A DNA stretch of 64,000 nt. Source: Paludisphaera borealis. GTDB taxonomy: Bacteria > Planctomycetota > Planctomycetia > Isosphaerales > Isosphaeraceae. Below the pieces are notes generated by a model. That model did no database searches, was not told the origin of the DNA, and saw nothing but the letters and a program-made list of their open reading frames with translations. Location: contig NZ_CP019082.1 in assembly GCF_001956985.1 (NCBI RefSeq), positions 6,200,001 to 6,264,000 on the forward strand. The letters run 5' to 3'. This document shows, piece after piece, positions 3,428 to 6,953 of this stretch. The first letter of the stretch is position 1; the number at the start of each line of letters is the position of its first letter. Both the position numbers and the translations under genes were made by a program.

Positions 3428-5005
3428 ATGGCGAGTCTGCGAAAGCGTGGTAGGGCTTGGTATTACCGATTCACCGACGCCGACGGCCAGAAGGTCGAGA
3501 GGAAGGGATGTTCCGACAAACGCGCGACCGAAGAGCTGGCTCGGGCCGCCGAGTCCGAGGCCGCGAAAATCAAGGCAGGGCTGGTCGATCCCCGCGACCT
3601 GGTGCGGCGAGAGCATGAGGCCCGACCGATCGGCGAGCATATCACTTCGTGGGGGGACGCAATCCGGGACAAGGGAGGGACGCCGCGTCACGTCTCCATG
3701 TCGGTTTCCCGCGTCCGCCGCCTCGTGGCGATCGTTCGAGGGGCGGCGCTTTCCGATGTCGAGTACCCACGAACCGCGAAGCGCGCCGACCTGCCCCAAC
3801 ATGAAGCGAGGGTGGCCGGGTGGCTGGCGTCGGCCCGGCTTGGCGACCTGACGACTGAAAGCGTGCAAAAGGCCCTGGCGGCGCTCCGGTCGCAAGGCAT
3901 GTCGCTCCAGTCGCTCAACCATTACCGCGCGGCCGTGCGGTCGTTCGCCATCTGGTGCCACGACACGAACCGCACGCGAGAGAGCGTCTTGCGAGGGGTG
4001 AAGACGTACAACGCCAAGGAAGACCGACGCCACGATCGACGAACCATCGCCGTGGCCGAACTGCACAAGCTCGTGGAAGCCGCCCGCACCGGCCCTGTTG
4101 TTCTGGGAATGACCGGCCCGGCCCGAGCCTTGTGCTACCGGCTGGCCGTCGCCTCTGGCTTGCGGTATGCGGAGCTGGCGAGCATCACACCCGCGTCGTT
4201 CGACTGGACGGCCGATCCGCCCACCGTCGCCGTAAGCCCCGCCTACACGAAGAACGGCGAAGCCGCGACGATGCCTCTGCCTGGCGACCTGGCAAGCGAC
4301 CTACGGCCCCTCGTGACGTCCACGGCCAATGATGCGGCCGTCTTCCCTCTGCCCGTCGACAAGGGAGCCGAGATGCTGCGCGCCGACCTGGCGACCGCCG
4401 GCATCCCCTACGTGGATGCATCCGGCCGATTCTTCGACTTTCATTCCCTTCGATGCCAAACCGCGACGTTACTTGACGCCGCCGGGGTGACGCCGCGCGT
4501 CGCCCAACGCATCATGCGGCACAGTACGCCCGGCCTGACCGACCGCTACACGAAGCCCCGAGCCGTTGACGTGGAACGCGCGGCCTTGTCTCTGCCGTCG
4601 CTACGTTCTCCCGAGCCTTTTCAAGCCGCCCTATTCATCCAGACCGCGACGGGAACCGCTGGTCTTGCCCACCGTCTCGCGGTTCCCTCTGAGGGGCCGA
4701 ACCCCACCGATCCGGTGAATCACTGGACAGAAGGCCAACCCATAAGCGATGTCTTTGCCCACCATTTGCCCACCGGAGGGGACGGATTGGGGCGGGATCT
4801 GTCGCATCCTGACGTTTTGACGGGATCGGATGAGCAATCGGCGATGAAGGGTTCGCCCCGAGAAAAGACGGATCTAGACGCAAAAAGCCGCCTTACGGCG
4901 GCTTCTGCGTCGAGTGACCGGGGTGGGGCTCGAACCCACGACCAACGGATTAACATACCTCATCGGCTTTCACCGACCAACCGATCCGCCGAGGATCGGT
5001 GTTGA
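3428..5005 (+). CDS. Tyrosine recombinase (integrase)
   Basis: A phage-type integrase of 525 residues. An N-terminal arm-binding-like segment (SLRKRGRAWYYRFTDADGQ) is followed by a SAM-like core-binding domain and the catalytic domain. Expected catalytic residues are visible: Arg in SGLRYAEL, Lys in TKNGE, the H..R box as FHSLR, and His/Tyr in RHSTPGLTDRY. A good AGGAG ribosome site lies upstream of the ATG. The catalytic domain ends near residue 390; the last 130 residues look non-homologous, and the final ones (GGARTHDQRIN) are simply antisense translation of the tRNA 3' exon and part of its intron. This places attachment at that tRNA. It ends the element module whose other genes lie to the left. 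Confidence 0.93.
   Translation: MASLRKRGRAWYYRFTDADGQKVERKGCSDKRATEELARAAESEAAKIKAGLVDPRDLVRREHEARPIGEHITSWGDAIRDKGGTPRHVSMSVSRVRRLVAIVRGAALSDVEYPRTAKRADLPQHEARVAGWLASARLGDLTTESVQKALAALRSQGMSLQSLNHYRAAVRSFAIWCHDTNRTRESVLRGVKTYNAKEDRRHDRRTIAVAELHKLVEAARTGPVVLGMTGPARALCYRLAVASGLRYAELASITPASFDWTADPPTVAVSPAYTKNGEAATMPLPGDLASDLRPLVTSTANDAAVFPLPVDKGAEMLRADLATAGIPYVDASGRFFDFHSLRCQTATLLDAAGVTPRVAQRIMRHSTPGLTDRYTKPRAVDVERAALSLPSLRSPEPFQAALFIQTATGTAGLAHRLAVPSEGPNPTDPVNHWTEGQPISDVFAHHLPTGGDGLGRDLSHPDVLTGSDEQSAMKGSPREKTDLDAKSRLTAASASSDRGGARTHDQRINIPHRLSPTNRSAEDRC
4882..4902 (-). terminator. Rho-independent terminator of the tRNA gene
   Basis: On the minus strand GCCGCC, loop GTAA, GGCGGC is followed directly by TTTTTG, a textbook intrinsic terminator. 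It lies 13 bases beyond the tRNA discriminator base, so it ends the tRNA transcript. It lies inside the 3' part of the integrase reading frame on the other strand. Confidence 0.85.
4915..4953. other. Integration site (att) region: tRNA 3' exon
   Basis: These 39 bases are the 3' exon of the split tRNA: half of the anticodon loop, the 3' anticodon stem strand, variable loop, T-arm and 3' acceptor strand. The integrase gene on the opposite strand runs through them, as is usual when an element uses a tRNA 3' end for attachment. The crossover point within the segment cannot be placed without the second copy. Confidence 0.6.
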
Positions 5006-5253
5006 AAGTCTGGACTATCTCTTCGCCATCACAGGCGTGCCGCGTCTAGTCTCTGAGGCTGGGGCCGATGATCCATCGGTCCCTTGCCTGCTGATTACCC
5101 AATCCCCTCGGCTTTTCAACCTTCACGATCGCCGTCGCCGGCCTCGTTGTGGTGCAAGGGGCTCTCAGGGCGTCCCAGCATACTGCGGCATCCACTCGTC
5201 GCGGTTCGGTTTCTTCCCGCGCGAGGCTCCGAATGCAGTGCAAACCGCAACTG
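4954..5253 (-). ncRNA. Group I self-splicing intron in the tRNA anticodon loop
   Basis: The 300 nt between the exons carry the conserved core of a group I intron in the right order on the minus strand: Q-like ATCAGCAGGCAAG (5095-5083), R element TCAGAGACTAGACG (5056-5043) and S element AGATAGTCC (5020-5012). GACTA of R can pair with TAGTC of S to form P7, the guanosine-binding site. The intron ends in G, the expected omega-G. Size and position after U34 resemble the small tRNA introns of cyanobacterial tRNA-Leu. No homing endonuclease frame is present. The P1 helix is not clean: bases 8-13 of the intron pair best with the exon bases ending at U33, leaving U34 opposite a C, which is the main uncertainty about the exact 5' splice site. 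Confidence 0.88.
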
Positions 5254-5579
5254 AAGTCCGTTGCTCTACCGACTGAGCTACCCGGTCGCTAAATGTCAAA
5301 GACACGACTAAGGTACGCTTTTCAGCCTCGCGAGTCCAGCCCCCGTTGCTCAGCCAAGGCATGTTTGGAACGGCTCGCCGCGCACTCATCGACTTCAGTC
5401 GTCACCGTCGGGATAACCGGATCGTCCTCCGCCATCGCGTTTCGCGGCGACCACGGATCGATCGTCCGTACTGGACGCCTCCACGAGCGTCCGGTATAGT
5501 TTCGATGCCGACGATTGTTAATCAAGCCTCAAATAATTACGGCCGGGCGGGTTCGTTTTGCGCTGGGGGATCGATCGCG

Positions 5580-6953
5580 ATGGCAAGCCCCTCCGAAGCT
5601 TTCGGCTGCGGTGATTTCCGGCGTCAGAACGTCTCACGCCGCGAAGCGCTGCGGGCCGGAGCCCTGGCATTGACCGGCCTGAGTCTGCCGCAGCTCTACG
5701 CGAGGGGGCAGGGGGCAGGGGCCAACGGGTTCGGCCGCGCCCGGGCGTGCATCCTCATTTTCCAGTGGGGAGGTCCCAGCCACCTGGACACCTGGGACCC
5801 CAAGCCCGACGCTCCGGCGGGCATTCGCGGCGAGTTCTCGACGATCGCAACGAGTACGCCCGGCCTGATGATCAGCGAGCACTTCCCGATGCTCGCGGCG
5901 CGGTCGCATCGGCTGGCCGTCATTCGGTCGATGACCCACGACGACGCGGCCCATCTTTCGACGGCCCATCGCGTCGTGACCGGACACCTGGCGCCCCGGC
6001 CGAATTCGGACGACGCCGGCCCGTCGCCCAATGACTGGCCCCACCTGGGCGCGCTCGTCGCCAAGGTTCATCCTCGAAGCGGTGCCATACCCGACTCCGT
6101 GACGATGCCCTGGACGGTCGCCCACCCGGCGGCGCCCGGAGGGAAGGCGCCCGGTCAGCATGGCGGCTGGCTCGGCAAGGTCTACGATCCATTCCGGATC
6201 GACGGCGACCCCAACGCGCCCGATTTCCGCGTGCCGGGGCTCGGCCTGCCCGACGGCGTCTCGCTCGGACGGCTCGACGAGCGGCGGGCGCTGCTGGCGA
6301 GCTCGAACGATGCGCTCGACCTCCCCGCGTGGGACTCCTACCAGGCCCGGGCGCTCGACGCGTTGGGCTCGGCCGAGGCGCAGGGCGCGTTCCGCATCGA
6401 CGGCGAGGCCCCGCGAATCCGCGAGATGTACGGTCGGAACATCCACGGACAATGCCTGCTGATGGCCCGTCGCCTGGTCGAATCCGGCGTCCGGCTCGTC
6501 ACGGTCAACTGGCACAACGACGGCCAGAACTTCTGGGACACGCACGGCGACAACTTCAACCGTCTCAAAAACGATCTGATGCCACCGGCTGATCGCGGCT
6601 TCTCGGCCCTTCTGGACGACCTGCACGCGCGGGGGCTGCTCGACGAGACCCTGGTCGTCTGGGTCGGCGAGTTCGGTCGAGCCCCGAAGATCACCGCCGC
6701 CAATGCGGGGCGCGAGCACTGGCCGCGCTGTTATTCGGCCGCCCTGGCCGGCGCGGGAATCGGCGGCGGCCAGATCTGGGGTACCTCCGATCGCTGGGGT
6801 GCCTACCCGGCGCGCGACCCGGCCAGCCCCGACGACCTCGGCGCCACGATCCTCCACTCCCTGGGCGTCGATCCGGCCAGCGAGATCCCCGACACCTTCG
6901 GCCGACCGATGCGGATCAACACCGGCGCGGCCTTGACGAGCCTGTTCGCCTGA
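5580..6953 (+). CDS. DUF1501 family exported protein
   Basis: A 457-residue member of the DUF1501 family, a sulfatase/alkaline-phosphatase-like fold abundant in planctomycetes with no firmly known substrate. The N-terminus has a twin-arginine signal (NVSRREALRAGALALTG). Family motifs are present: FQWGGPSHLDTWDPKPDAP, SMTHDDAAHLSTAHRVVTGH, NFWDTHGDNFNRLK, VVWVGEFGRAP and GREHWPRCYSAALAG. I chose the ATG at 5580 because GGGGGA lies about 10 bases upstream and the Tat signal follows; the frame is open further upstream. Unlike the other two DUF1501 genes here it has no DUF1549/DUF1553 partner and is followed by a sugar-phosphate isomerase, so the two may act on one substrate. That is inference. 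Confidence 0.93.
   Translation: MASPSEAFGCGDFRRQNVSRREALRAGALALTGLSLPQLYARGQGAGANGFGRARACILIFQWGGPSHLDTWDPKPDAPAGIRGEFSTIATSTPGLMISEHFPMLAARSHRLAVIRSMTHDDAAHLSTAHRVVTGHLAPRPNSDDAGPSPNDWPHLGALVAKVHPRSGAIPDSVTMPWTVAHPAAPGGKAPGQHGGWLGKVYDPFRIDGDPNAPDFRVPGLGLPDGVSLGRLDERRALLASSNDALDLPAWDSYQARALDALGSAEAQGAFRIDGEAPRIREMYGRNIHGQCLLMARRLVESGVRLVTVNWHNDGQNFWDTHGDNFNRLKNDLMPPADRGFSALLDDLHARGLLDETLVVWVGEFGRAPKITAANAGREHWPRCYSAALAGAGIGGGQIWGTSDRWGAYPARDPASPDDLGATILHSLGVDPASEIPDTFGRPMRINTGAALTSLFA

Follow-up and report, generated by a model that had tools for sequence, protein, structure and literature searches.

The group I introns of bacterial tRNA genes are the closest described systems to the element reported here. 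They are inserted in the anticodon loop, in tRNA-Leu(UAA) right after U34, and their known hosts further include tRNA-Ile(CAU), the initiator tRNA-Met and tRNA-Arg(CCU). A 2014 review of bacterial group I introns contains, in the accessible part of its text, neither lysine nor the string planctomyc (PMC3984707), and the accessible part of the tRNAscan-SE 2.0 paper explains missing initiator Met and Ile2 genes by such introns, with tRNA-Lys not mentioned there (PMC8450103). Inserts in the anticodon loop of a lysine tRNA were termed group I introns for Gloeocapsa PCC 73106 (PMC5733544, partial text); however, they measure 22-49 nt, far short of a group I core, and lie in a tRNA-Lys(CTT) gene, so that this claim was not counted as a precedent. 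The group I introns of tmRNA (PMC11915505, partial text) share with the present case a structural RNA gene that carries an intron and is a frequent integration target, but they reside in the T loop and not in the anticodon loop. A published group I intron in tRNA-Lys(UUU) was not found in the literature searched, which left much subscription literature uncovered, and an earlier report is possible. The wetland bacterium Paludisphaera borealis PX4T carries a split tRNA-Lys(UUU) gene on the minus strand at 4915-5287 of a window of 64,000 nucleotides (the whole stretch analysed, contig NZ_CP019082.1, positions 6,200,001 to 6,264,000). On comparative grounds this gene is very probably interrupted by a group I intron. 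tRNA-Lys(UUU) would join the tRNAs that host group I introns, in a class for which no report was found. The gene is laid out as follows (window positions):

5254-5287, minus strand: 5' exon of tRNA-Lys(UUU), 34 nt, with acceptor, D arm, 5' anticodon stem and C32, U33, U34
4954-5253, minus strand: predicted group I intron, 300 nt, starting with CAG and ending in the final guanosine G4954
4915-4953, minus strand: 3' exon of tRNA-Lys(UUU), 39 nt, with U35, U36, A37, A38, 3' anticodon stem, T arm and acceptor

An earlier note on this DNA had proposed two minus-strand tRNA halves 300 bases apart, and both were located exactly where it had placed them. The intron site lies between the anticodon bases 34 and 35 (U34/U35). 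The 3' exon carries the discriminator A73, the CCA end is not encoded. ARAGORN called the joined exons as a canonical tRNA-Lys(ttt) of 73 nt with the anticodon UUU, and A73 and the anticodon agree with what we take to be the identity elements for lysine. Between the exons, acceptor pairs were formed in 100% and anticodon-stem pairs in 98.9% of the cells of a 35-sequence alignment; the anticodon stem covaries across the intron (AU 29, GC 4, unpaired 2).

A DNA search of 45 genomes of the host family gave matches in 41. Thirty-six introns were read at the same site in 35 of these genomes, with a length of 281-338 nt, each with CGGACTT on its 5' side and TTAATC on its 3' side. All 36 end in G, as had been claimed for the window; the search expression fixed ACTT before and TTAAT after the intron, the terminal G was not prescribed. 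In genome G036 the intron is present in two contig pieces. A model of the intron core built from the family matched 36 of the 45 genomes and scored the family's introns with 178-219 bits; the intron is not a sporadic guest. No core-model match was obtained in nine family genomes (G017-G020, G016, G013, G021, G025 and G034). Three of these are less complete (G013, G021 and G025, 68-89%) and G016 belongs to the same genus as G017-G020. In the four genomes G017-G020 of this genus the gene is intronless and reads CGGACTTTTAATCCG, joined exactly at the predicted splice site with the anticodon TTT; all four were called Lys(ttt) by ARAGORN. The lysine identity given in the earlier note is thus borne out by the intronless relatives and the joined exons alike, and its group I intron in a tRNA-Lys proved to be conserved in the host family and to covary as a group I intron does.

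For the covariation, helices P1 to P9 were written out from the window sequence and the pairs then counted in alignment A1, which holds 35 sequences and leaves out L096 (a near-copy of L065, the second copy in one draft genome) and the two G036 contig pieces; alignment A2 comprises 20 of the 35 sequences. The helices are:

5227-5256, minus strand: P1, in which the guide sequence GGAG (5227-5230) pairs with 5253-5256, the exon bases C32 U33 U34 plus the first base of the intron
5195-5225, minus strand: P2 hairpin, 9 pairs, 95.5% of cells paired, 5 pairs changed on both sides
5185-5190 with 5038-5043, minus strand: P3, 6 pairs, 99.5% paired, 3 changed on both sides
5176-5180 with 5089-5093, minus strand: P4, 100% paired and invariant, enclosing P5 and its extension
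5097-5171, minus strand: P5 and extension, P5 97.1% paired, 14 pairs of the extension changed on both sides
5057-5088, minus strand: P6 and extension, 11 pairs, 96.9% paired, 5 changed on both sides, all in the extension
5047-5051 with 5013-5017, minus strand: P7, the catalytic helix, crossing P3, 5 pairs, 100% paired, one pair AU 25 / CG 10
5024-5037, minus strand: P8 hairpin, 4 pairs, 100% paired, one pair GC 27 / AU 8
4963-4976, minus strand: P9-region hairpin UCGG-UGAAAG-CCGA, 5' of the 3' splice site, 4 pairs, 100% paired, one pair UA 32 / CG 3

Across this structure 97.7% of 3132 cells pair. Changes on both sides were observed in 34 of 90 pairs against a mean of 18.4 in shuffled alignments, and none of 500 shuffles reached as high. 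RNAalifold independently recovered the nested intron helices and drew the tRNA D arm differently; P7 crosses P3 and therefore cannot show in such a fold. The core helices of group I introns, P3, P4, P6, P7 and P8 with the crossing of P3 and P7, are present throughout the 35 sequences. The uridine before the 5' splice site pairs with a guanosine of the guide sequence, and this U34-G59 wobble (counted from the tRNA start), which marks the splice site, is kept in 35/35; the pair of the first intron base varies (CG 29, UG 3, UA 2, unpaired 1). A uridine before the intron and a guanosine at its end are the boundary rules used here (PMC11915505, partial text). The sequence elements named at the outset were recognized as well: the stretch we take to be the R element spans the 5' strand of P7 and continues into P3, the presumed S element spans the 3' strand of P7, and what we regard as a Q-like stretch spans the 3' strand of P4 and continues into P6. 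R and S presumably resemble those of the Azoarcus and Anabaena introns, and the intron is a candidate member of subgroup IC3. The core model matched introns in other tRNAs at E-values of 7e-4 to 1e-15. The predicted fold and boundaries are established by comparison of these sequences.

The remaining tRNA genes of P. borealis fit a functional role of the split gene. The genome consists of 7,651,896 bases in three contigs, a main contig of 7,497,544 bases and plasmids of 111,833 and 42,519 bases (PMC5352709); in the accessible main text of that genome paper the word intron is absent. A search of the genome yielded 67 Rfam tRNA matches, and ARAGORN called 70 genes on the surrounding stretches. 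An intact tRNA-Lys(UUU) elsewhere, the finding that would have spoken against the proposal, was looked for, and Lys(TTT) is absent among the 70 genes around the 67 matches. One Rfam match (L041, 32.9 bits) was not called by ARAGORN; visual inspection of its anticodon loop gave a reading other than TTT. Among the split boxes the remaining UNN anticodons are present, namely Leu(TAA), Gln(TTG), Glu(TTC) and Arg(TCT), hence Lys(TTT) is a gap that the split gene fills. Lys(CTT) occurs three times, twice in an array of 21 tRNAs. AAA codons are in use: 16 of 2969 codons in six reading frames of the window, one of them the integrase described below. AAA is read by the UUU anticodon, and with no other gene found these codons would depend on splicing; the reading of AAA in P. 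borealis appears to hinge on the self-excision of the intron. The gene escapes both plain ARAGORN and Rfam at its gathering scores, so such genomes can seem to be without a tRNA for AAA. As a separate observation, the array mentioned above consists of 21 tightly packed tRNA genes, some of them low-scoring, at G000:C1:1528259-1530276 (L028); such arrays are often seen in phages or plasmids.

Several points weigh against an intron-interrupted, functional tRNA-Lys(UUU). At gathering scores, Rfam found nothing in the window, and the threshold of Intron_gpI was not reached. In the covariance-model check proposed earlier, a permissive search of 4850-5350 gave Intron_gpI (RF00028) at 4997-5263 with 25.3 bits (E 1.9e-4 in 501 bases), which is by itself only suggestive against a gathering score of 50; taken with the conservation in the host family and the covariation, the match lies far beyond chance. 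RNAI and the other permissive matches in 4850-5350 were set aside, being under their gathering scores. The ARAGORN check held for the joined exons, while the plain mode found nothing in the window and missed the split gene, and the intron mode returned asparagine. Sliding the pairing partners by one column lowered pairing to 41-42%, a control that favours the structure since it was drawn first on the window sequence. P9.0 and P10 were not established. In G034, which is 93% complete, neither the intron nor an intact tRNA-Lys(UUU) was found. The published number of tRNA genes for PX4T is 79 (PMC5352709, partial text) versus the 70 found here, and a second tRNA-Lys(UUU) is not strictly excluded. 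Finally, both steps of splicing are deduced from the family to which the intron belongs, its conserved covariation and its precise absence in relatives. The best DNA match in G034 is a tRNA-Arg(TCT).

Related introns were sought beyond the family with the core model. In a class sample of 397 genomes it matched 51, of which 36 belong to the family and 15 to the 352 genomes outside it. Six of these 15 have the match in tRNA-Lys(UUU), at the site used in the family, and come from two further planctomycete families (G075, G140, G245, G356; G228, G281). Another six have it within large-subunit rRNA genes, five of them with a group I intron named by Rfam; of the last three, two belong to a CAU tRNA and one probably to an initiator tRNA. 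In a phylum sample of 392 genomes 7 matched, three of which had been known before; the four additions comprise two in large-subunit rRNA and two in tRNAs that do not read as Lys. One patescibacterial genome held two core-model matches (L199, L200). Among more distant bacteria, 7 of 194 genomes of one cyanobacterial class matched, 22 of 321 of the Gammaproteobacteria (24 matches) and 17 of 240 of the Alphaproteobacteria (18 matches). These three classes yielded the intron types Arg(UCU), Leu(UAA), Arg(CCU), CAU and initiator. A Lys(UUU) splice was not found in 37 loci (L201-L237) of the 49 matches from the three classes, where strict filters and a model of one family may miss weak relatives; within the 37, L217 and L218 gave no intron tRNA in ARAGORN, L223 and L226 no rule-abiding split, and several were ambiguous. 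A degenerate pattern scan of a collection of genome contigs produced 23 stretches, none of which fits the intron model at E 0.01, and these were treated as chance.

The tRNA introns of other bacteria resemble the Lys intron to different degrees. Gammaproteobacterial tRNA-Arg(UCU) introns are also inserted after U34 and gave, with up to 73.5 bits, the best matches outside the planctomycetes, but they sit in another tRNA and on a separate branch of the core tree. The tRNA-Leu(UAA) introns share the site and, in 6 of the 9 alphaproteobacterial ones typed, the 5' exon end GGACTT; they differ in the host tRNA, in a 3' exon starting AAAAT and in a core that scored 46-55 bits with the Lys model versus 178-219. 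CAU-type introns, in contrast, are inserted after U33, ahead of the anticodon, and in another tRNA. CAU and initiator types were found here in planctomycetes, initiator and Arg(CCU) types in cyanobacteria. Because the Leu(UAA) and Arg(UCU) introns also follow U34 and GGACTT is shared by six of the nine Leu hosts, an intron could have moved between Lys, Leu(UAA) and Arg(UCU) tRNAs via its guide sequence.

Some occurrences in these samples stand on their own. tRNA-Arg(UCU) was a frequent intron host in the gammaproteobacterial sample and occurred once in the cyanobacterial one (L201, L208-L216, L221, L222). Planctomycete rRNA genes carry group I introns at L152, L153, L154, L157, L158, L166 and L167, with two in one gene at L154 and a further unnamed match in L155. 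The planctomycete introns at L159, L160 and L161 have as hosts a CAU tRNA that may be Ile2 and what is probably an initiator tRNA.

Whether the Lys introns of the other families go back to the same event as those of the window's family was considered with a core tree on alignment A3 (75 loci, 124 columns; L151, L156, L160, L216-L218 and L222 are among those left out). In this tree the other-family Lys introns group at 0.999 and those of the window family at 0.685. The two groups are not sisters: their joint clade of 40 tips (0.93) also holds 12 non-Lys introns, mostly from planctomycete rRNA. A separate insertion in the other families, and not one shared event, is accordingly well conceivable, if somewhat short of probable. 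It agrees with the core tree, which does not join the two Lys groups exclusively, and with the intact tRNA-Lys(UUU) in 24 of 32 other planctomycete genomes tested; the remaining eight are three intron carriers (G075, G140, G228), one genome with a permuted gene (G055) and four in which none was found (G049, G051, G082, G120). A shared origin is favoured by the identical insertion site and the similar 3' ends of both groups, and by summed BLAST scores, best 145-198 bits to the family's Lys introns against 90-117 to other introns, where the sets compared are unequal (36 vs 14); the tree, moreover, rests on just 124 columns.

Inside the host family the intron seems to be inherited mostly vertically, which fits the moderate agreement of intron and marker distances in the 20 genomes that have both sequences (Spearman 0.43, a value reached by 41 of 9999 permutations). 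A tree of a YgiQ-like radical SAM protein used 26 of 30 loci, 27 of the 31 genomes given having a match. The intronless genus g13 is represented by four genomes, of which three are known to lack the intron and one, G016, has no tRNA data. Together with the intron-bearing G014 they form one clade (0.997), and this clade is nested in a wider group that has Paludisphaera among its members (0.998). G014 is a draft with 9% contamination and is placed inside g13 (0.924), which prevents the intronless genus from forming a clade of its own; the placement could reflect two losses, a regain or an error of the tree. On this one marker tree the lack of the intron is a derived state, and the exons meet precisely at the joint, which points to a precise loss. 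The introns of 281-338 nt are too short for an endonuclease gene; a protein search was not run on them. A ribozyme kept without a mobility gene and precisely absent in one genus is a clean case for studying the persistence and loss of introns.

Splicing would follow the established group I mechanism. In the predicted fold of the precursor, U34 as the last exon base wobble-pairs with the guide sequence GGAG. An exogenous guanosine bound in P7 would cut after U34; the 5' exon released in this way would then attack behind the intron's terminal G, and the exons would be joined to an anticodon loop CUUUUAA. The spliced junction expected is CGGACUU joined to UUAAUCCG in a 73-nt tRNA. For some group I introns protein help is known, with CYT-18 and others as examples (PMC3984707, accessible part), and the RNA might be inactive alone and require a host protein for its removal. 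We regard this as improbable for an intron with a complete and compact core, the sequence of which gives no call for such help.

Far less probable still is a decayed tRNA that is no longer spliced and is kept as the attachment site of a neighbouring integrated element. An integrase gene does abut the tRNA, whose 3' half has a second copy at a distance of about 73.8 kb, but the constraint on exons and intron is strong throughout the 35 genomes, and no other gene for the AAA codons in use was found. The reading as tRNA-Asn(GUU), offered as an alternative in the earlier note, would place the start and the end of the intron one base further 5'; ARAGORN's intron mode reports it as Asn(gtt) for the window locus and three homologues in other families. 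It can practically be dismissed: the intronless relatives read TTT, the genome already has three Asn(GTT) (two genes and one in the tRNA array), the shift would bring the intron's terminal G into the exon, against the rule, and undo the U-G pair kept at the 5' splice site in 35/35, and the same mode, whose split is not known to be bound by group I rules, also gives Leu(taa) for three other homologues.

The neighbourhood of the split gene contains:

3428-5005, plus strand: integrase-family gene, PF00589 with 41.4 bits (E 1.7e-10) on 3428-4900, its frame running across the tRNA end
4913-4961, minus strand: putative attachment core, intron end plus 3' exon, with a second copy about 73.8 kb away at G000:C1:6131159-6131207, 98% identical over 49 bases
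4887-4899, minus strand: terminator-like hairpin with T tail directly 3' of the tRNA, a consensus match only (2 in the region versus 0.5 expected)

The integrase-family gene, sought in the window, presumably belongs to an element integrated at the tRNA, which may extend between the two copies about 73.8 kb apart. The DNA search of the family revealed six second copies in five intron-bearing genomes, and integrated elements appear to target this tRNA. Exact matches to the host's intron end continue beyond the exon for 10, 8 and 7 bases in copies of G029, G030 and G006. The copy of P. borealis matches the intron end for 3 bases only, or for 7 of the last 10, and the attachment-site evidence for the window's own element is thin. 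Two copies are degenerate, the one of G028 and the second one of G030. In the intronless G020, by comparison, the copy agrees with the 5' exon over 7 bases.

Should these be attachment sites, any element with the intron end in both of its copies must have brought that end along, irrespective of where the crossover lies. The elements could be adapted to the intron: their attachment site would be the 3' splice junction, the element would supply intron end and 3' exon and thereby rebuild a spliceable tRNA, and the element of the intronless genus would carry the exon-exon version. We give this adaptation about even chances; an exact match to the intron end over at least 7 bases is present in just three of the six copies, which weighs against it. 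If true, gain or loss of the intron in the tRNA alters which elements can integrate there, and the attachment sites offer a test of whether elements track intron gain and loss.

In another planctomycete family, f3, which by our guess includes Gemmata, tRNA genes in tandem circular permutation were observed. They consist of a 3' half, a linker of 3-8 bases and a 5' half, and the acceptor arms pair. G055 has four such genes in a row (L268, G055:C1:1262000-1276000, about 5725-6325), one of which reads tRNA-Lys(UUU); two were seen in G111 (L272) and one in G171 (L271). The same scan found none in 805 kb of other loci, and a literature search for permuted tRNA together with Gemmata returned nothing. 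A 14-base flank motif occurs in 6 of 95 genomes of the family versus 2 for the reversed control, with no permuted gene seen in three of the six. The flanks of the permuted genes share motifs that look, by eye, mutually complementary.

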